Positions 3,078 to 12,174 of a stretch of 12,174 nucleotides of DNA are shown in pieces. This stretch comes from Lentimicrobium sp. (lineage in GTDB: Bacteria > Bacteroidota > Bacteroidia > Bacteroidales > Lentimicrobiaceae): assembly GCA_013336205.1 (NCBI GenBank), contig JAAXUD010000033.1:1-12174 (forward strand), written 5' to 3'. The notes beneath the pieces were generated by a model. The model did not search any database. It was not told the origin of the DNA and saw nothing but the letters and a program-made list of their open reading frames with translations. The translations under genes were made by a program, and so were the position numbers. How positions within the stretch are numbered: position 1 is the stretch's first letter; each line of letters starts with the position of its first letter.

Positions 3078-3599
3078 TTAATGTTGAGGTTGATTGTTAT
3101 CATTTAAATTCTCTAACCGGCTGATTATTTTCTCACACAAAAGTTCTTCATTTCCCGAACACCAGCCCGGATGAGTGCAAATAATGTTCTGCTGCGCATC
3201 ATAGAGAATGGTACTGGGAATAATGCTGATGCCAAGGGAGCGTTTAAAATCTCCATTCACATCAATATAAACCTCAAATTCCCATCCTTTGCCGGCAACA
3301 ATGGGTTTTACATGGCTCCAGGAGCCTGAACAATCCTCACAAATGGCAATAAAGTTTACGCCTTTGTCTTTCAGCTGACTCAGCCAGGCAGACTGAACCG
3401 TCTCAAGATTTTCGCAGCATTTCGAATTTCCTGATTTCCAGAATAACACGATTACCGGTTGTCCGGGAGTGATCACCTCTGAAACCGGGATGAGTTTCCC
3501 GTTCAGGTCGCGCAATTCAACACCCGGCTTTTCTGCCTTCTGAGCCGGAAGACAGGAACTACTGAACATCATCAGAAGTAAAATCAGCACCGTTTTCAT
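3078..3599 (-). CDS. Exported thioredoxin-fold protein with incomplete CXXC
   Basis: A 173-residue exported protein of the TlpA/AhpC-TSA thioredoxin superfamily, starting at the ATG at 3599 (MKTVLILLLMMF). The upstream in-frame ATG at 3632 would place 11 charged residues before the signal peptide. The signal could be lipoprotein type (SSS-C16) or be cleaved after LPA-19. The fold is recognisable: a beta strand PVIVLFW (48-54), then the active-site loop, then a cis-Pro motif SIIPSTILYD (P128). The usual W-C-x-x-C is replaced by FWKSGNSKCC, so the first Cys of the pair is Asn and only C61 (plus C62) remains. Other cysteines form CEDC (87-90) and C141, C147, C155. A canonical disulfide reductase role is therefore doubtful; a peroxiredoxin-like, metal-binding or structural role is possible. 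It is the first gene behind operator copy A. Confidence 0.8.
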   Translation of the reverse strand: MKTVLILLLMMFSSSCLPAQKAEKPGVELRDLNGKLIPVSEVITPGQPVIVLFWKSGNSKCCENLETVQSAWLSQLKDKGVNFIAICEDCSGSWSHVKPIVAGKGWEFEVYIDVNGDFKRSLGISIIPSTILYDAQQNIICTHPGWCSGNEELLCEKIISRLENLNDNNQPQH

Positions 3600-3661
3600 G
3601 ATTTCAGATTTTTTATTCTTTTGTTTCACCACTGCGCTCCAATGACTTATTTGGTTGGGTT

Positions 3662-3697
3662 GAAAATCAATATTTTATTGTAAACACATTGATTTTC
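3662..3697 (-). promoter_or_regulatory. 5' leader stem-loop of the thioredoxin-fold gene
   Basis: Perfect 10-base inverted repeat gaaaatcaat (3662-3671) / attgattttc (3688-3697), loop 16 bases. It lies just downstream of the predicted start site of promoter A, so it would form near the 5' end of the transcript. A comparably placed 10-base repeat occurs in the leader of the T9SS cargo gene. Confidence 0.45.
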
Positions 3698-3710
3698 AGA
3701 AATGTATATA

Positions 3711-3764
3711 CAAAGTTAAAGAACAAAAAAGGCCCTGTCAATCGCATGAAAGTAGATAAATGAA
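3711..3764 (-). promoter_or_regulatory. Promoter A with shared operator (thioredoxin-fold unit)
   Basis: On the minus strand the shared block (3735-3764, core TATCYRCTTTYATGCGATTG) ends in a TTG at 3741-3739. Exactly 20 bases later comes TAACTTTG (3718-3711), a perfect TAnnTTTG box. The 30-base block is identical to that of promoter B. The predicted leader to the ATG at 3599 is about 105 bases. The position of the block, immediately upstream of and overlapping the -33 element, suits a transcriptional activator. Confidence 0.8.
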
Positions 3765-3841
3765 GCGACAACACTGCCCCGGCTCAACCAGAAAAATGGG
3801 TTGCAGGGCAAGAATTCCTGATCCATTTTCACACCCGGAGA

Positions 3842-3874
3842 TAAAAAATCCCGGGTGTTGCAACCCGGGATTTT
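3842..3874 (-). terminator. Rho-independent terminator after the T9SS cargo gene
   Basis: Perfect 12-base inverted repeat aaaatcccgggt (3845-3856) / acccgggatttt (3863-3874) with a 6-base loop. On the minus strand the stem leads into a T run (ATTTTTTATC). It lies about 29 bases after the stop codon. The other strand has four T residues after the stem and could terminate weakly. Confidence 0.92.
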
Positions 3875-3902
3875 CGTCAGGTGCACAATAGATTAAAATC
3901 AA

Positions 3903-6263
3903 TTATTTGTGAATCACAACTTTCTTTATCTCCCTGTTAACACCCTGCACGATTTCAAAGAGATACAGCCCGTCAGGCAGGTTCTCAAGCCCGATAACAA
4001 AGGCGTTATCTCCTTCCGAAACCCTGGTTTCAAGCCGTTTTTGTTGCCGTCCCGTTGTATCGAACAGGCGCATGGTAACAAAGCCGTCGGCGTTGCTGTT
4101 AAACTCAATGTTCAGTGCGGTAGCAGCAGGGTTTGGATAGAGTTTCAAAGCGGTTTCTGCTGCAACTTCTTCAACCGGATCAGCTTCGGAGCTCTTGTAA
4201 ATTCTGGCCAGCAATGAATAACATTCGCTCTGGTTAAAATGGCCAGAATTCCCGTAAACGCGGATATAATACGTTCCTGCAGCCCCTTTTGTATAAACAA
4301 TGGATTCGCTGCCGTCCGCCAATGCTGAGGAGGTTGCCAGCAAGGTTCCGCTGGATTTCACCAGTTGCATTTTATATGGACCCGGCAGATTATAAAGGCT
4401 GAGGTTTATCTTCTTCTGGGCGCTGGTATTGTTAAATTTATACCAATCTATATCCGTAAAGAAACTTATCACCCCCGTGACCGGCACACCAACACTGATC
4501 TGTGTAGCCGTGGCCAGGGTATTGTTTGGTTCGCCGGGATTGTTGCAACCATCGGCAATGGTTTTAAACCAGCAGCATGTTGACCATGTTCCCGGCGTAC
4601 CATCGCAAACGCCCTGAACCTGGTATTCGTAGAAGCTTCCAGTTGAAAGTCCGGTTAATATAAAACCGGAAGTCACATTGCCCGGGGTTGTCCACTCAGT
4701 GCCTCCGTAAAGCCTGTAGCGCAGGTTATAACTGCCCGCAGCGTTTGTGTTGATCCAGTTTGCCGAAGCGCTGTTCTGCTCAACATTCAATACTTGTATG
4801 GCTGTTGGTGGCTGGCAACCCGGCAACCCGACTTTGCGCAATTTTTGAAAGAAACCGGAAGAATGATTACCTGGTTCCATGTAAAAGGTTCCGGGATCGG
4901 GATCAAAATCTATGGGGAGTCCCTGTTCTCCTGATAGAATAAGGTTTTCAGCCGGATCAAGGCGAATCGTACCTACACCGCTGCAACAGTATACCTTAAA
5001 TTCAAGAACCCATTCGAATGCCCCGGCATTGTTTAGTTTAAGGATCACCGGGTTCCCATCGAAGGTTGTCGGATTACTCAGTATATACTTGCCCGGCCCG
5101 GGATCAAAATCAATATTCCCCCTATAGGATGCTTTTACGTAAAGGTTGCCGGCTGCATCCATACAAAGGTCTGTGCATGCAATAAAGTCGGTAGATTTGG
5201 GACTTATCAATAAGTCAGTCCAAACGGCATTCCCTGTAGCCGGGTCTATTTTCTGTATCTCAGAGCTGGTTTTTGTGTTGTATACTCCAATAAATTTAAC
5301 TGTATAGAGGTATCCATCCGGGTGATACCATAGACCATGGATTTCGGCAACGCCTGGTACGTTATAATTTTTAACCCACGAAAACTGTCCGTTCATGATT
5401 TTGAGTAAAAAAGGGTCACCATCGGCATCTGTCAGGTAATAAACACCGGGACCCGGGTCAAAATCAACTGTGCCGCTAAAACCGCCACCCAGGTACATTT
5501 CCCATCCGTTTGCGTTGACATTTACAAACAGAGCACGGCATCCTTCGCTACCAATTCCGCCAATACTTCCGGCCCAGTTGAAATTGCCGTCCGGATCAAG
5601 CCTGAGCAGGTATACATCGCTATTGCTTCCATTGGCGTTTAAGAGCATTTCCCCCGGACCGGGATCAACATCCAGTGTTCCATAAAACTCACCCGCAGCA
5701 TAGATGTACCCATCTGTGCCAATCATAAGAAAGCCTGCCCAACCGGTTACAGCCGAAGAAACCAGTTGCTTGGCCCACAGCACAGTCCCTTCAGGCGACA
5801 GTTTCAGAATAAAATCATCAGATTCTGCCTGTGCAGTAAGGGTAAATTCTCCAAAACTGACAATACCATAGAAGTGCCCAATGACATAGATATTTCCATA
5901 GGCGTCGGTACTGACTCCTCTTCCAACATCCTGCACTTCCCCGCTGTTGGCACCAAACTGTAGCGCCCAAAGGAAGTTACCGTCAGGATCCAGCTTCTGT
6001 ACAAAAATCTCCCTTTCCTCCGGAGACGCGCTTGTTAAGGAGTAAACTCCAGGACCGGGATCAAAATCAACGTTCAGCGTAAAATAGCCTGTGGAAATGC
6101 TGTTTCCATTGTTGTCAACAGCCATGTCGATGATGCCGACAAATCCCCCGTCAGGCATGATCTGTTTTGCCCAATCGAATTCGTGGGACAGTTGTGCATT
6201 GGCCGAAAGTGAGATGAACAGGCTTCCGGCCATGCAGACCAATAAGTAAACTAACTTTTTCAT
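3903..6263 (-). CDS. T9SS-secreted multidomain protein: propeller repeats, FN3, PPC, sorting domain
   Basis: A 786-residue secreted protein. A Sec signal peptide occupies residues 1-23 (MKKLVYLLVCMAG... ending SANA before QLS). Residues about 30-475 consist of blade-like repeats of about 60-69 residues. Each reads roughly 'GN-x-Y-x-x-G-x-F-x-G-x-x-DFDPGPG-x-x-x-L' followed by 'F-x-x-K-L-DPDGN-F-x-W', as in SBBP/beta-propeller proteins. DxDPxPG motifs sit at 66, 198, 267, 385 and 452; degenerate blades fall near 134 and 326, giving seven blades. An FN3-like domain follows (about 484-570), then a PPC-type beta-sandwich (about 578-690). A type A T9SS C-terminal sorting domain ends the protein (707-786: KLYPNPAATALNIEF, GLYLFEI, KKVVIHK). 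It should be exported through the outer membrane and attached to the surface or released. No catalytic motif is seen. It is a monocistronic unit with operator copy B and its own terminator. Confidence 0.9.
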   Translation of the reverse strand: MKKLVYLLVCMAGSLFISLSANAQLSHEFDWAKQIMPDGGFVGIIDMAVDNNGNSISTGYFTLNVDFDPGPGVYSLTSASPEEREIFVQKLDPDGNFLWALQFGANSGEVQDVGRGVSTDAYGNIYVIGHFYGIVSFGEFTLTAQAESDDFILKLSPEGTVLWAKQLVSSAVTGWAGFLMIGTDGYIYAAGEFYGTLDVDPGPGEMLLNANGSNSDVYLLRLDPDGNFNWAGSIGGIGSEGCRALFVNVNANGWEMYLGGGFSGTVDFDPGPGVYYLTDADGDPFLLKIMNGQFSWVKNYNVPGVAEIHGLWYHPDGYLYTVKFIGVYNTKTSSEIQKIDPATGNAVWTDLLISPKSTDFIACTDLCMDAAGNLYVKASYRGNIDFDPGPGKYILSNPTTFDGNPVILKLNNAGAFEWVLEFKVYCCSGVGTIRLDPAENLILSGEQGLPIDFDPDPGTFYMEPGNHSSGFFQKLRKVGLPGCQPPTAIQVLNVEQNSASANWINTNAAGSYNLRYRLYGGTEWTTPGNVTSGFILTGLSTGSFYEYQVQGVCDGTPGTWSTCCWFKTIADGCNNPGEPNNTLATATQISVGVPVTGVISFFTDIDWYKFNNTSAQKKINLSLYNLPGPYKMQLVKSSGTLLATSSALADGSESIVYTKGAAGTYYIRVYGNSGHFNQSECYSLLARIYKSSEADPVEEVAAETALKLYPNPAATALNIEFNSNADGFVTMRLFDTTGRQQKRLETRVSEGDNAFVIGLENLPDGLYLFEIVQGVNREIKKVVIHK

Positions 6264-6294
6264 GATGCTGATGGATTTGGGTTTTTTGTTAAAA

Positions 6295-6346
6295 CAATGG
6301 TTTTTATGACATGACTATAATTTTTATTAAACTGCCAAAACCATTG
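6295..6346 (-). promoter_or_regulatory. 5' leader stem-loop of the T9SS cargo gene
   Basis: Perfect 10-base inverted repeat caatggtttt (6295-6304) / aaaaccattg (6337-6346), loop 32 bases. It lies between the predicted transcription start of promoter B and the ATG at 6263, starting about 12 bases into the leader. Its 5' arm contains AATCAATG-like sequence (minus strand), also present in the leader hairpin of the thioredoxin-fold gene. Confidence 0.4.
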
Positions 6347-6364
6347 ATTGTCAGTAGCATAATA

Positions 6365-6418
6365 CAAAGTTAAGCCTATAAAAAAGGGCTGTCAATCGCA
6401 TGAAAGTAGATAAATGAA
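6365..6418 (-). promoter_or_regulatory. Promoter B with shared operator (T9SS cargo gene)
   Basis: The minus strand carries the 30-base block (6389-6418), identical to copy A. It ends in TTG (6395-6393), then exactly 20 bases, then TAACTTTG (6372-6365), a perfect TAnnTTTG box. The 20-base spacer differs from that of copy A at 9 positions, mostly in its box-proximal half, whereas block and box are fully conserved. The predicted leader is about 95 bases. Confidence 0.82.
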
Positions 6419-6640
6419 AGTGGAAAAAGGGGATAATCGTTGATGTGAGGATGTGGTTATTTTACAATTTGTAAGTATAACGCTGCGGACTGCGGGGCAG
6501 GCGAAAATACAGGCATTGAAAACAGGAAGATAAGCAGACCGATTGCTTGTAGTTTAAATGATATACGCAGGAAGGCTGATCAAATTGATCTGCTTATGAT
6601 TCATACCCGGATTGCCGTTTCCCTGAAGCAAATAAAGGAC
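6419..6640. other. Intergenic stretch with no gene seen
   Basis: Between operator B and the terminator of the response regulator I find no reading frame longer than about 16 residues with a start codon, on either strand. The only structure noted is a short dyad GATCAAATTGATC at 6578-6590, with no promoter box placed to give it a role. Confidence 0.5.
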
Positions 6641-6670
6641 AAAAAATAAACGCTGAAATTGTCTCAGCGT
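6641..6670 (-). terminator. Rho-independent terminator after the LuxR-type regulator
   Basis: Inverted repeat acgctga (6650-6656) / tcagcgt (6664-6670) with a 7-base loop. The minus-strand 3' side is TTATTTTTTG. It begins about 17 bases past the stop codon of the regulator gene. Confidence 0.8.
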
Positions 6671-6686
6671 CATATACTCAGGAATT

Positions 6687-7313
6687 CTACCTGAACACCT
6701 TATTAATGGCATCGATACGTGAATGCACCTGGAGTTTTTCGTAGATATTTCTTACATAAGTTCTGACGGTTTCTATGCTGATGCACATCTGATCAGCAAT
6801 TTCCTTGTACTGGAAGCCCTTCGACAATGCCTTCAGCAACTCCTGTTCGCGCTGTGTAAAATTCTGGAGCAAGCCGGGGCTTTGGTTCTGCACCTGGAAA
6901 GCCTTGATCACATAACGGGCGATCTGCGGCGACATAGGTGAACCGCCGCGCGCTATGTCGTAAACGGCATCGGTGAGCTGAGCCGGTGAGGCATTTTTGA
7001 GGATATAACCCGATGCCCCTGCACAAAGGGCGGCAAAGGTTTTGTCCTGGTCTTCGTGCACGGTGCACATCATGTATTGAACTGTTTCCCTTTGTGGCTT
7101 CAAAAGTTTCACACATTCAATGCCATCGATGCCGGGCAGGTTGATGTCCATCAATACCACATCAACATCCATTTCGGGAAAAGCATCTATATACGCTTCG
7201 GCAGAACCAAAGGATCCAACAACGTTCAGATCCTCGGGCTTCGAAAGAAATAATTCCATAGATTCCCTGATCTCTTCGTCGTCTTCTACCAATGCAAGTT
7301 GTATCGCTGACAT
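6687..7313 (-). CDS. NarL/FixJ (LuxR-type) response regulator
   Basis: A 208-residue DNA-binding response regulator. The receiver domain (about 3-120) has acidic residues E10/D11/D12, phospho-acceptor D56 (VVLMDINLPG), T84 and K106 (SGYILKNAS). The C-terminal LuxR/GerE helix-turn-helix (about 150-205) shows FTQREQELLKALSKG, then YKEIADQMCISIETVRTYV and the NIYEKLQVHSR helix. It is encoded downstream of the TPR histidine kinase on the same strand, the usual pairing of HisKA_3 kinases with NarL-type regulators. It has its own operator-bearing promoter in the 123-base gap. No terminator separates it from the kinase, so read-through is also possible. It is the best candidate for the protein that binds the four-copy operator, including its own. 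The start codon has GGAG only 2 bases upstream, and the predicted leader is very short, about 11 bases. Confidence 0.93.
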   Translation of the reverse strand: MSAIQLALVEDDEEIRESMELFLSKPEDLNVVGSFGSAEAYIDAFPEMDVDVVLMDINLPGIDGIECVKLLKPQRETVQYMMCTVHEDQDKTFAALCAGASGYILKNASPAQLTDAVYDIARGGSPMSPQIARYVIKAFQVQNQSPGLLQNFTQREQELLKALSKGFQYKEIADQMCISIETVRTYVRNIYEKLQVHSRIDAINKVFR

Positions 7314-7329
7314 GACTCCATTTTTAATG

Positions 7330-7383
7330 TAAACTTAAAAATTTCAGGGGCGCCGCGCAATCGCATAAAAGTAGATAGTTGAA
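7330..7383 (-). promoter_or_regulatory. Promoter C with shared operator (response regulator)
   Basis: The minus strand reads the operator core (within 7358-7383: TATCTACTTTTATGCGATTG), ending in TTG at 7360-7358. Exactly 20 bases later lies TAAGTTTA (7337-7330), one mismatch from TAnnTTTG. The spacer starts with a GC-rich stretch unlike the other copies. The four bases after TTG are CGCG rather than ACAG, so those bases are outside the conserved core. Confidence 0.72.
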
Positions 7384-7436
7384 GGCGTTTGGAGTCAGCT
7401 TCTGGTTGTTTGACAGAATTGTAATTATATACCATT

Positions 7437-9896
7437 TTAATTGTAAACTTCTCCTGAGAGGTGTACAGCGGTTCCTTGATCTGGCCGGCTCTCAATTTCA
7501 ATCTTCCCGCCCACACTTTCCATCCTTTTCTGCATGTTTTTCAGGCCATTGCCTTTCAGTTTCATTGCTTCTGCGTCGAATCCCCTGCCATCGTCGGTAA
7601 TGGTGAGCCGGTATTGATGATCGGGGCAATAACAGGCTACGCCGATGTTTTGGGCGCCTGAGTGCTTGGCTGCATTGTGCAGGGCTTCCTTAACCACCAA
7701 AAACAGCGTTCGCTTCAGATCGGGATTGAATTTCAGGTCGGTCTCCTTTTCGGGGAAGTCCAGTGAAACCCTGAAACCGGTGTCTTCGAAGAATTTTACG
7801 ATGTAACTTCTCAGGTAAGCAAAGAAGCCTTCGAGGTTGTCGCGGTCGGGGTTGATGGCCCAGATAATCTCACCCAGCCGGTCAACTGTTTCATGCGAGG
7901 AGGCCAGAATTTTCTCCAGTGCATTTTCGGCATCGGACGGACTGCCGCTTTTTGCCTTTTCGCGGGCCAGTTCGCTTAGCCAGGCAATGCGGGTAAGGCC
8001 TGAACTGATGTCGTCGTGAATGTCCTGCGAAATGCGGCGGCGGATAACTTCCGTTTCCTTCTGCTTTTCGATTGCCACCAGTTGTTCCTGGGTTTGTTTC
8101 AGGTCTTCAAGGGTAACGGCCAGTTTGTTATTCTTCATGTTCAGCTCCTCGTTCGCCCATCTGATTTCGCTGTTCAGTTCCTTCTGTTTAAGAGCGGCCC
8201 TGCGTTGGTTTCGGTAAATCCGGAAGATCAGGAAGATGGACAGGAGGCTGAGCGCCACACCCCAAATTAAAAGGTTACGCTCCAGTAAGCGTTTGCCGAG
8301 TTTGAGCTGCTGCAGGTTCAGGTTCTGTTTCGTGAGGATCAGCTGTTTCTCCTTATCCTGTTTATCGAGCTTTACCACATCCAGTTCAGCCATCTTCTTC
8401 AGGTAGGCGAGGTGCTGCATCTCCTTGTCTTTCCTGCCGATTTCCAGGGCTTTATCTTTGAGCAGCATTTCCTGCCCGCGGGTGCGGGCAAGCAGGAGTT
8501 GCTGCTGCAGTTGGGTATTGGCGTTGGCAGCAGCAATATCACTTAGCTCCTTCTGGTACAGGATGTCTTTTTCCTTAATGCTGTATTCGTATTCGGCATC
8601 TTTACGGGCGAGCTGGTCGCGGATTTCTTTGTTATCTATACTGTCGCGCTGAATAATGTACTCTTTGTAATAGTAATAGGCTGAGTCGTACCTGCCCATA
8701 GCTTCGTATATTTCTGACATAGTTTTCAAGGCTACCTTCCTGCTAAGCAATTCTTTTGTGCTATCAGCCACAATAATTGCATTTTTGGCATAATTCAATG
8801 CTTGACCAAAATTCTTCTGGTAATTGTATATTTCAGCCATTATTATAAAGCAAGCACTATTTAATACATACTGTCCTGTCTTGTTATTATAAAAGACAGA
8901 TTCATTCAAGCAGGCAAGGGCAAGACTATATTGATCGACTTCGGCATATCCAAGCTTTTTATAATAGTCTGATTTCTTAAAATGATTAAATGTTGAATCA
9001 TCGATTACATACAAATATTCTCCAATAGTTAATAAAACGCTTGAAAGCATACCGTAGCTTTGTTGTAATCTGATGATTTCAAGTGCTTCAAATAAATACT
9101 TAAGTGGTCTTTCAGTTGTGTCGCCACTATTAAAATAGGCTTCGGAAATTGCTATCTTCACCATTGAAACCCAATACAATGAACCCGCGGTCTCAAAAAC
9201 GGGAAGTGCCTCAAGAAGATAATCCAGGGCCTTGCTATTATCGCTAAGACATTTATAAATAGCGCCTAGAATCATTTTGCTGTGCGCTGAACTCATTTTA
9301 TCATAAAGTGTTGAGTCTGAAATATTCAATGCTTTAAGAATGTAATCCTGTGCTTTTTTATATTTTGCTATTTTATAATATGTAACACCGAGTCCTTCAT
9401 AAGGGTCATATAATTTGTCATTTCTTCCAATAGATTTATAAGTTTCTATTGCTTCATTATACAACATGATGGCTGTTTCGAATTCTCCCAACTCATTATA
9501 GAAATTAGCCAATGAGGTTGTCATAACACCTATGCGAAGGGTGTCATTCAATTCTTTATATATGTTAAGTGCTTCCTCTAGTTCTTGAAGTGAAAGATCA
9601 TATTCTGCAGTACGTCTGTGAGAAAAGCTAAGATGTTGCAAGTTTCTGGCCAAAGCCTTTTGATTTCCAAGTTTTCTTGCAAGTTTTATTGCTTTTGTAC
9701 TATATTCTATACAATTTTGAGCATCTACCAAACGTGCAAAGTGATCTGTAATTTTTGTCAATAGCATTAGATGTGTTGTGTCATCCTTCAGGTAATTCTT
9801 TTCCGCATTGATCAGCGAATCCAACTCAGCATTCTGGGCCAGGGAAACGGTATTTCCGGAAAATAATAACAGCAGAATAAAAATTAACTTTTTCAT
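7437..9896 (-). CDS. TPR-containing sensor histidine kinase (HisKA_3 type)
   Basis: An 819-residue membrane sensor kinase. A signal peptide (about 1-20, MKKLIFILLLLFSG) is followed by TPR-type helical repeats from about residue 40 to 415. A long coiled coil follows (about 425-540), then a single transmembrane helix (542-561, LLIWGVALSLLSIFLIF). The TPR region should therefore lie in the periplasm. The cytoplasmic part has a second coiled coil, then a HisKA_3 dimerisation domain with phospho-acceptor H627 (SQDIHDDISSGL). The ATPase domain has N741 (KEALHNAAKHS), D768/D769 (ITDDGRGFD) and G782/G784 (KGNGLKNM). All key residues are present. Base composition changes sharply inside the gene: the sampled TPR-coding lines are about 28-30% GC, the sampled coiled-coil and kinase lines about 47-62%. 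The adjacent NarL-type regulator is its expected partner. Upstream lie two promoters, one with the shared operator. Confidence 0.93.
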   Translation of the reverse strand: MKKLIFILLLLFSGNTVSLAQNAELDSLINAEKNYLKDDTTHLMLLTKITDHFARLVDAQNCIEYSTKAIKLARKLGNQKALARNLQHLSFSHRRTAEYDLSLQELEEALNIYKELNDTLRIGVMTTSLANFYNELGEFETAIMLYNEAIETYKSIGRNDKLYDPYEGLGVTYYKIAKYKKAQDYILKALNISDSTLYDKMSSAHSKMILGAIYKCLSDNSKALDYLLEALPVFETAGSLYWVSMVKIAISEAYFNSGDTTERPLKYLFEALEIIRLQQSYGMLSSVLLTIGEYLYVIDDSTFNHFKKSDYYKKLGYAEVDQYSLALACLNESVFYNNKTGQYVLNSACFIIMAEIYNYQKNFGQALNYAKNAIIVADSTKELLSRKVALKTMSEIYEAMGRYDSAYYYYKEYIIQRDSIDNKEIRDQLARKDAEYEYSIKEKDILYQKELSDIAAANANTQLQQQLLLARTRGQEMLLKDKALEIGRKDKEMQHLAYLKKMAELDVVKLDKQDKEKQLILTKQNLNLQQLKLGKRLLERNLLIWGVALSLLSIFLIFRIYRNQRRAALKQKELNSEIRWANEELNMKNNKLAVTLEDLKQTQEQLVAIEKQKETEVIRRRISQDIHDDISSGLTRIAWLSELAREKAKSGSPSDAENALEKILASSHETVDRLGEIIWAINPDRDNLEGFFAYLRSYIVKFFEDTGFRVSLDFPEKETDLKFNPDLKRTLFLVVKEALHNAAKHSGAQNIGVACYCPDHQYRLTITDDGRGFDAEAMKLKGNGLKNMQKRMESVGGKIEIESRPDQGTAVHLSGEVYN

Positions 9897-10100
9897 GGCC
9901 GAAAGACGATAATTAAAAATTTAACTTCAGGCAAATGATGGTTAGAAATGAGCTTTCCAAGTCAGGGCGGGCTGTTTAAAACAGAATTAAGATTGAATCG
10001 CAGGCCGGGCATGGGAGGTAAAGATGCCGTCAGGACAGGAAAGTGAAATATGACTAAATTACCCATGCTACAGTAAAACCGGTCACATATAGCATTTTCA

Positions 10101-10131
10101 CAAATATAAGAAAATTTCGGGCAAATATCAA
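10101..10131 (-). promoter_or_regulatory. Proximal promoter of the TPR kinase gene
   Basis: On the minus strand TTG (10131-10129), 20 bases, then TATATTTG (10108-10101), a perfect TAnnTTTG box at the standard spacing. It lacks the shared operator, so it could supply basal expression beneath the regulated distal promoter. It implies a leader of about 200 bases before the ATG at 9896. Confidence 0.65.
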
Positions 10132-10185
10132 GGATTTCGGAAATTTTTTATTTGAACCCTTCACTGCTGCACCGGCTGTTTTTAC

Positions 10186-10239
10186 AAAATATATCTGTTT
10201 AAAAAATTACTGTCAATCGCATAAAAGCGGATAAATCAA
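10186..10239 (-). promoter_or_regulatory. Promoter D with shared operator (TPR kinase gene)
   Basis: The minus strand carries the operator block (10210-10239; core TATCCGCTTTTATGCGATTG) ending in TTG at 10216-10214. Exactly 20 bases later lies TATATTTT (10193-10186), one mismatch from TAnnTTTG. ACAG follows TTG, as in copies A and B. The core differs from A/B by TA to CG and C to T. The predicted leader to the kinase start is about 280 bases. Confidence 0.72.
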
Positions 10240-10669: not shown

Positions 10670-12174
10670 ATGAAAAAATCTTTCGCCCTTCTTTTTGCCC
10701 TGGCCAGCCTATGGGCACAGGCACAATACAGCACACCCGGCACAGGCGTTACCTGGAACCTCGATTCGCTGGTGACAAATTCAGGCGGTGCAGTGATCCG
10801 GGATGGTGACAATTATGAAGTTACCGAAACGATCATCATTCAACCTACTGACGCGCTGAATATCCTGGAAAATGCAACCATACTGTTTCACGAATTAACC
10901 GGTATTGAATCGTCGGGAATACTGACAATAGATGCCCCTTTTCAGGCACTGTTTACCGCCATCGACAGCACTTCTGTGAATAAATGGAACGGGATTAAAC
11001 TGCTTTCGGACCACGTAACCAGCATAAAAAATGCTACCTTCTCGTTCGGGGGAGGAATGCGGGTGCTGACAGGTACATTTTCAGTTGACGGCAGTAAATT
11101 CTATAAAAATTTCTATAATTCAGATTCCTATACTTCGAGCGCGGCCCTTGATATTTCAGGCTTTGCCAATGTAACCAATTGCATTTTTACGTTTAACCAG
11201 CGCGGCGCTATTGCTTCAGGATCGAATATTGCCTGCCGGGCAAATATCCGCAATAACTATATTTTCGGGAATACGACCGAAAACACAAACCGGCCACAAA
11301 TAAACATGGGACCCTCGGGCCCGAACGATACCACTTTTATTGTGGGCAATACCGTGATTGGCAATGGAAGTACAAATTCAGGCGGCATCGCTTATTCCTC
11401 ACTGGTGGGTTTGGCCGGCAATGTGGTAATTGATTCCAACTTTATAGATCAGAACCGCTACGGGCTTACCTTAACCGGAAGCCCAATCAATGGAGCTGTG
11501 CGTTACAACACAGTGACCAACAACAATATACAAAGTGATCCCAACCTGGGAGGCAGCGGGCTCAATTTTACCGCATCAAGCGCTTCATCCGACCTGCAGG
11601 CCGTGGTTACAGGCAATGTAATCAGCGGCAACCACTGGGGAATTACCATTATTGGTTATCCACAGGTCAACATGGGCGATTCTGCCGTCGCTACCTTTAA
11701 TCCCGGAGGAAACCAGTTTTCTGACAACGGCAACGGGGGGATACTCTACGATCTTTATAACAATGGCCCGGTGGCTCAAACGGCCATGTACAACTGCTGG
11801 GGCGTGGCTTCACAGGATGCAGCCAGCATAGAAACTGTTGTTTTTCATGTAGTTGACAACCTTTCACTGGGCCGTGTTACATTTATGCCGTCCTGTGCTT
11901 TTCAGACAGTATTTAATGTGCAAAACGAGGCAGGCCTGCCATTATCGGGTGTCGAAATTGCTATTGAAAATTTTGACGAAACCCTTATTACCGGTTTCAA
12001 TGGAAGTGCAGCTGCCATGTTACCTCCCGGCAATCATCTGTTTACAGCCAGTCTTGACGGATACAATGACTATAATGGCAACTATACCGTTGTGCCGGGC
12101 ATCAATTCGGTGAACATTGAAATGGAAAGTTCAACTCCACAGTATTATACGCTCACATTCCAGGTAAACAACCC
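10670..12174 (+). CDS. Exported right-handed beta-helix protein (3' end cut by window edge)
   Basis: A reading frame open to the end of the window, 501 residues visible. It starts MKKSFALLFALASLWAQA with a predicted Sec cleavage after residue 18, leaving Gln as the first residue. From about residue 60 to 400 the sequence is rich in Asn, Gly, Thr and short beta strands in repeated turns (ITNCIF-like: VTNCIFTFNQRGAI, NIRNNYIFGN, VVIDSNFIDQNRYG, VVTGNVISGNHWG). This pattern is characteristic of right-handed parallel beta-helix (PbH1) proteins. From about residue 413 a carboxypeptidase-regulatory-like beta-sandwich begins (FNVQNEAGLPLSGVEIAIENF, LPPGNHLFTASLDGY). Such modules commonly precede a T9SS sorting domain, which would lie beyond the edge. 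It could be a polysaccharide-interacting protein or adhesin; no catalytic residues can be assigned. It is divergent from the kinase gene. Confidence 0.88.
   Translation, partial: MKKSFALLFALASLWAQAQYSTPGTGVTWNLDSLVTNSGGAVIRDGDNYEVTETIIIQPTDALNILENATILFHELTGIESSGILTIDAPFQALFTAIDSTSVNKWNGIKLLSDHVTSIKNATFSFGGGMRVLTGTFSVDGSKFYKNFYNSDSYTSSAALDISGFANVTNCIFTFNQRGAIASGSNIACRANIRNNYIFGNTTENTNRPQINMGPSGPNDTTFIVGNTVIGNGSTNSGGIAYSSLVGLAGNVVIDSNFIDQNRYGLTLTGSPINGAVRYNTVTNNNIQSDPNLGGSGLNFTASSASSDLQAVVTGNVISGNHWGITIIGYPQVNMGDSAVATFNPGGNQFSDNGNGGILYDLYNNGPVAQTAMYNCWGVASQDAASIETVVFHVVDNLSLGRVTFMPSCAFQTVFNVQNEAGLPLSGVEIAIENFDETLITGFNGSAAAMLPPGNHLFTASLDGYNDYNGNYTVVPGINSVNIEMESSTPQYYTLTFQVNN

Follow-up and report, generated by a model that had tools for sequence, protein, structure and literature searches.

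Genes and promoters at the locus

The window, a stretch of 12,174 nucleotides from the draft genome of Lentimicrobium sp. (Bacteroidota; Bacteroidales; contig JAAXUD010000033.1), carries on its minus strand four copies of a 16-mer, ATCYRCTTTYATGCGA, each abutting the TTG of a promoter and each lying before a different gene. The four genes are those of a NarL/FixJ-family response regulator, the adjoining sensor kinase with tetratricopeptide repeats (TPRs), a protein bearing a domain of the type IX secretion system (T9SS), and a thioredoxin-fold protein:

3078..3599, minus strand: AhpC/TSA (thioredoxin-fold) protein of 173 aa, PF00578, with a signal-peptide-like N-terminus by eye; proposed target
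3903..6263, minus strand: 786-aa secreted protein, its domains being fn3, PPC and Por_Secre_tail (T9SS); proposed target
6687..7313, minus strand: NarL/FixJ-family response regulator, receiver plus GerE helix-turn-helix; proposed binder of the operator
7437..9896, minus strand: proposed cognate sensor kinase of 819 aa with TPRs, HisKA_3 (PF07730) and HATPase_c (PF02518) and a signal-peptide-like N-terminus by eye

An earlier note on this DNA had read the genes downstream of the four copies as a thioredoxin-fold protein, a T9SS cargo, a LuxR-type regulator and a TPR kinase, and the domain matches agree. The regulator matches PF00072 (E 1.2e-24) and PF00196 (E 6e-17), its residues D56 and K106 are invariant across 13 aligned sequences, and its PDB matches are VraR, NarL and DevR, VraR being the closest by sequence (E 2.2e-30); both PF07730 and PF02518 are above cut-off in the kinase. 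At the protein level the nearest homologues of the regulator (P0122-P0133) share 76-84% identity with it, and those of the kinase (P0002-P0015) 54-75%.

Four copies of one proposed operator at a fixed distance from four promoters

Each copy of the 16-mer forms a unit with two promoter boxes, and the fourth copy is the most divergent:

3742..3757, minus strand: copy 1, ATCTACTTTCATGCGA; -33 TTG at 3739-3741, -7 box TAACTTTG at 3711-3718
6396..6411, minus strand: copy 2, ATCTACTTTCATGCGA; -33 TTG at 6393-6395, -7 box TAACTTTG at 6365-6372
7361..7376, minus strand: copy 3, ATCTACTTTTATGCGA; -33 TTG at 7358-7360, -7 box TAAGTTTA at 7330-7337
10217..10232, minus strand: copy 4, ATCCGCTTTTATGCGA; -33 TTG at 10214-10216, -7 box TATATTTT at 10186-10193

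The core TATCYRCTTTYATGCGATTG is found at 3739-3758, 6393-6412, 7358-7377 and 10214-10233 with no mismatch in any of the four; searched in the window with up to three mismatches it gives four matches where 0.01 would be expected by chance, and none of 200 dinucleotide shuffles reaches four. The blocks at 3735 and 6389 are the same over 30 bases, and in every copy the TTG is followed after exactly 20 bases (N20) by a TAnnTTTG-like box, so that the geometry, the shared core and the 30-base identity described in the earlier note all hold. Two of the boxes are exact and two are altered (TAAGTTTA, TATATTTT), the format being that of the Bacteroidota sigma-A promoter, and ACAG opens three of the four spacers, which lengthens the box there to TTGACA.

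In sigma-A promoters of Bacteroidota the -33 element is TTG and the -7 element TAnnTTTG; what remains of the block once the promoter is taken away is therefore the 16-mer before the TTG, at roughly -51 to -36. The earlier note had taken the block as a whole for the operator; its three final bases, however, form the -33 element, and the operator in the strict sense is the 16-mer in front of them. In Flavobacterium psychrophilum the TAnnTTTG box lies at -12 to -5 (PMC9723704), and with start sites placed in the same way the operator is centered at about -43.5, directly beside the -33 element, in all four cases.

Pairwise likeness among the four copies is 81-100% for the operators, 25-60% for the spacers and 18-42% for the 60-nt flanks. 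As the spacers and flanks are dissimilar while the operators are alike, no long recent duplication can have produced the copies, in keeping with the earlier note; recent duplication was accordingly rejected as an explanation, and homologous genes in other families also carry the element.

The strict pattern, TATCTACTTTYATGCGATTG, was run at up to three mismatches, and in the whole draft genome (4,105,322 bases in 914 contigs; 89.75% complete, 5.23% contamination) it matches at the four window sites and nowhere else, the reversed control giving none. The looser TATCYRCTTTYATGCGATTG adds a single match with three mismatches (C835:4821), and a pattern of half-core plus promoter gives 12 matches at up to three mismatches against three in the control, the eight outside the window all having three mismatches.

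The element beside regulator homologues in relatives

A profile search of genome contigs with the regulator alignment provided 80 relatives' loci, which are among the matches listed and do not include the 76-84% homologues. Upstream regions were examined for 40 of these, chosen by title as Bacteroidota or near, together with 20 regions from the same genus. The same kind of element precedes the regulator homologue in L110, L111, L112, L115, L117, L186 and L289; in the first three, where the regulators are 59-61% identical to that of the window, it lies directly upstream.

Kinase homologues at E<=1e-80 are present in three of 393 genomes of the order, namely that of the window, G103 and G111, the latter two belonging to other families. 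In G103 and G111 the element has the commonest form, ATCTACTTTTATGTGATTG, or one near it, followed by N20 (once N21) and a -7 box. It stands in G103 before each of two regulator genes and, at position 4787 of locus L112, before a gene whose product is homologous over its whole length to the window T9SS protein (37% identity); in G111 it stands before the regulator and before the next gene, which encodes another Por_Secre_tail protein.

A matrix built without L115, L117 and L186 gave 44 matches of at least 9 bits in the 80 loci against 27 when reversed. The top 13 (at least 18 bits) fall in seven loci (L110, L111, L112, L114, L115, L117 and L186), at the regulator gene or elsewhere in the same locus; by title, L114 and L115 are Chitinophagaceae and L186 is an isolate, Pseudarcicella hirudinis. 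An operator was recognized at the regulator promoter in 25 of the 40 loci and elsewhere in the locus in one (L114).

These 26 loci, seven of the 20 genus regions and the window make up the 34 loci with a recognized operator, each of which was searched with the operator at its own regulator promoter (for L114, its sole site), promoter geometry being demanded beyond one mismatch. The search returned 59 sites, the 34 seeds included; the 25 non-seed sites compare with three for reversed operators, and a few of them look like chance, for example that in L152 at 5302. Among ten target proteins, hand-picked from the 12 listed, seven have Por_Secre_tail above cut-off, and other targets have lipoprotein-like or signal-peptide-like starts by eye. 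Both in two further families of the order and in Bacteroidota more distant still, the element or a co-varying form of it lies directly before the regulator homologue and before neighboring exported, often T9SS, proteins; matches upstream of exported genes and in orthologous loci are what the earlier note had named as support for its proposal.

Sites and regulator across genomes

A composite pattern of the window type was run against the 393 genomes of the order. At up to two mismatches, a cut picked after the result was seen, there are 14 sites in five genomes (G000 four, G103 three, G111 four, G350 two and G174 one), and all five are among the nine genomes that encode a regulator homologue at E<=1e-60. 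The pattern owes its shape to three of the five, and not to G350 or G174; when the shaping genomes are left out, both site-bearing genomes are among the six remaining with the regulator, which has a probability of about 2e-4 if the two are unrelated. One of the sites in G350 is directly upstream of the regulator gene, and in G174, 1.8 kb from the regulator, the site precedes a gene whose 550-aa product has an N-terminus resembling a signal peptide. A further scan of 296 genomes of the phylum, with a looser pattern, found the regulator at E<=1e-60 in G000 only; among 19 loci inspected there, G658 and G525, both outside the class, have a regulator homologue of 49% identity directly beside the site.

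Paralogues with a different operator

No orthologues were seen in the same genus, where the best regulator matches have at most 48% identity and the kinases beside them match the window kinase in the kinase domain only; in 18 other genus genomes, where no regulator closer than 48% was seen, the 20-mer has no match with one mismatch or fewer. Seven paralogue loci of the genus have operators of another type, TCACATCAAAGGGTGA (paralogue operator TCACACGAAAGGGTGA), before the regulator and before the neighboring exported gene, and a composite pattern of this type finds 19 sites in 10 of 19 genus genomes against none when reversed. One such paralogue, C485, is in the same genome as the window and carries the TCACATCAAAGGGTGA-type operator; one genome therefore has two related regulators with two operators at an equivalent position.

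At a distance from the regulator, TCACAY-led sites also occur in five genomes before genes of a small lipoprotein-like family, similar by eye (L242, L243, L244, L246 and L247), and in two genomes before another exported protein (L245 and L248). The genus's paralogous regulators thus seem to control a wider set of genes.

These comparisons bear on whether a transcription factor other than the neighboring regulator binds the element and co-regulates the neighborhood. The right half of the element, TATGTGA, may resemble half-sites of other families, and 43 matches to the regulator at E<=0.001, receiver-only proteins probably among them, are present in the genome, so that further family members exist. 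However, the sites track this regulator subfamily in the order, they lie directly before the regulator gene in several families and outside the class, and the operator differs beside the paralogue and beside a homologue with a different recognition helix (L176); we consider another binder improbable. Assignment of the element to the regulator at 6687-7313, as the earlier note predicted, is supported by its presence at homologous regulator genes, by the co-occurrence of site and regulator and by the paralogue with its different operator.

Operator variants, symmetry and promoter strength

At the equivalent position other loci have other 16-mers: TACAACGTTYGTGTGA in L136 and L142, TACCACTAAAGTAGTA in L128, TCACATTTTCATGTGA in L188, and TACTACAAACGTAGTA and its variants in Spirosoma, Larkinella and relatives. 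In L176 the operator is TAGCCAGAACTGGCTA and the recognition helix differs as well (SNDTVHNHIRK). Several of the related operators are 7-2-7 inverted repeats with five to seven of seven pairs (L128, L135, L148, L153, L157, L176, L180 and L188); the pairs number six in L128, L135 and L188 and seven in L148 and L176, and one in the window operators.

Fifty loci were reduced to 27 representatives at 75% identity for a test of symmetry. Self-complementarity peaks 22-24 bases before the box, where 3.63 pairs form on average; for seven other offset ranges the mean is 2.59-3.07. In 500 shuffles the mean was 1.82 pairs (largest 2.78), but shuffling also destroys the boxes and the comparison of offsets is therefore fairer. 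Before the reduction to representatives the peaks lie at offsets 24 and 23, probably owing in part to the many Spirosoma-type loci. Since the window-type operator is asymmetric, binding by a dimer rests on these relatives; of the earlier note's proposal of activation by a dimeric regulator, the activation has position and precedent on its side, whereas the window 16-mer shows no clear palindrome and the dimer would be carried over from related operators.

The same variation speaks to the idea that the block is part of a promoter for an alternative sigma factor and no operator at all. The block does end in the -33 box and keeps a fixed distance to the -7 box; the core boxes, however, are those of ordinary Bacteroidota sigma-A promoters (TAnnTTTG; PMC9723704), from one regulator clade to the next the 16-mer changes but the box format does not, and several related operators have the inverted repeats just described. 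We give this idea hardly any credence.

In 13 of 16 loci, the window included, target promoters are nearer to TTGACA than the regulator's own promoter; two loci show the opposite and one is a tie (sign test 0.007, the loci not being independent; the near-duplicates L095, L097, L100 and L156, and also L152, were excluded). This would fit a regulator gene whose promoter is held below the strength of its targets' promoters.

The proposed regulatory circuit

We consider it very probable, from comparison of the sequences, that the block is the operator of the response regulator at 6687-7313, which, phosphorylated by the kinase at 7437-9896, would activate its own promoter and those of the kinase, the T9SS protein and the thioredoxin-fold protein. 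The TPR-sensor kinase would be the phosphodonor, as its adjacency and domains suggest; the phosphorylated regulator, probably as a dimer, would occupy the 16 bp upstream of the -33 TTG (about -51 to -36) and help sigma-A RNA polymerase at four promoters, those of the regulator itself, the kinase, the T9SS-secreted protein and the exported thioredoxin-fold protein. The outcome would be a locally wired, positively autoregulated two-component module that turns on exported proteins. In this scheme we infer the binding, the phosphorylation, the dimerization, activation over repression, and the signal.

The likeliest mode of action would be class II activation, because the operator position, centered at about -43.5, resembles that of NarL sites abutting the -35 element. 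The Escherichia coli yeaR-yoaG promoter needs no more than one NarL 7-2-7 site, located just upstream of -35, and the ogt promoter needs two sites, at -44.5 (abutting -35) and -77.5 (PMC7419079).

A number of observations weigh against this assignment. The window 16-mers have one of seven inverted-repeat pairs, and an ogt derivative with the -44.5 site alone is active and not coupled to nitrate (PMC7419079). Identity to the window kinase is no more than 34-37% for its homologues in the two best comparison genomes. Fourteen of the 40 relatives' loci have no recognized operator, among them L113 (regulator 57% identical) and L116 (50%), and no clear operator was recognized at a second paralogue in the window's genome (C360, L103). 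In the 18 other genus genomes the 20-mer has 59 matches at two to three mismatches against 12 when reversed, about five times commoner. At up to three mismatches the composite pattern matches in 37 of the 393 genomes, sites with three mismatches numbering 38 against 25 reversed; without the cut, which was chosen with hindsight, two of the six remaining genomes with the regulator compare with 34 of 390, a probability of about 0.09. Four genomes with the regulator at E<=1e-60 (G161, G226, G286 and G352) have no composite match; three of these have TACTACT- or TACAACT-led variants in upstream regions. The phylum scan gave 22 matches outside G000 against 24 reversed, and thus no excess.

The sign of regulation has also to be weighed. 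As a repressor or dual regulator, the protein would bind the element to limit its own expression and that of its neighbors until a signal arrives. Repression is known for autoregulatory sites, and the element lies next to the -33 box; the weaker -35-like hexamer that the regulator's promoter has in 13 of 16 loci would fit one sign as well as the other. Against this, neither the -33 nor the -7 box is covered by the 16-mer, and the core boxes of several regulator promoters are poor, such as TAG...CAATATTG in the Spirosoma group, which suggests the need for an activator. The location just upstream of -33 is also comparable to the one from which NarL activates yeaR-yoaG and ogt (PMC7419079). We regard repression as unlikely, although less so than binding by another factor, and retain activation.

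Beyond the window, we lean somewhat towards a module class widespread in Bacteroidota, in which a sensor kinase (of the TPR type in the window) and a NarL-type regulator are locally wired and would turn on both the regulator gene and exported proteins, by T9SS or another route, by way of a single promoter format, a 16-bp operator fused to the -33 TTG, N20 and a -7 box. Operator and recognition helix would co-vary by clade, the window operator being a hybrid of two unlike half-sites (TACTACT-like and TCRCATR).

Leaders and neighboring genes

The minus-strand leaders of the T9SS gene (6264-6362) and the thioredoxin-fold gene (3600-3706) each contain one inverted repeat, CAATGGTTTT...AAAACCATTG and TGAAAATCAAT...ATTGATTTTCA; as RNA hairpins they have folding z-scores of -1.44 and -2.05, respectively, which are not decisive. 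Next to the locus lies a further two-component pair, different in type: a receiver protein encoded at 1-594, where the contig end truncates it, and a His_kinase, PF06580 (596-1627). A lipoprotein-like protein of 264 aa with an export-like start and no Pfam match is encoded at 1917-2711, and a protein of at least 501 aa with an export-like start and a CarboxypepD_reg match below cut-off at 10670-12172. The search of the window found no copy of the operator at this pair or at either of these two genes.

Relation to known systems

The regulator shares its receiver plus GerE architecture with VraR, NarL, DevR and RcsB, for which structures are solved; those systems belong to other phyla. The mechanism is of a known kind, a NarL-type regulator with a site beside the -35/-33 element, as in NarX/NarL at yeaR-yoaG and ogt (PMC7419079). 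Unlike them, the window operator has another sequence and is asymmetric, the promoter is the Bacteroidota -33/-7 type with N20, the sensor is of the TPR type, and the proposed targets comprise the system's own genes together with exported and T9SS proteins; native ogt, as noted, needs a second site.

PorX/PorY/SigP of Porphyromonas gingivalis likewise ties a Bacteroidota two-component system to type IX secretion. PorX/PorY reportedly acts on secretion-apparatus genes (porT, SigP), although direct regulation is denied in one report, whereas the proposed targets in the window include secreted cargo and the regulator is NarL-type. Two-component control in Bacteroidota is also known from the hybrid systems of Bacteroides; these (PMC11253607) are single proteins acting on polysaccharide-use genes, whereas the window has a separate kinase and a NarL-type regulator. 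In the open-licence PubMed Central literature we found no description of the element, of its fusion to -33 or of its tie to T9SS cargo, nor of a promoter-level choice of T9SS cargo in Bacteroidota.

An operator format that can be read beside the regulator gene would allow sequence-based prediction of NarL-type regulator targets in uncultured Bacteroidota, and the matched clades of regulators and operators would lend themselves to the study of recognition.

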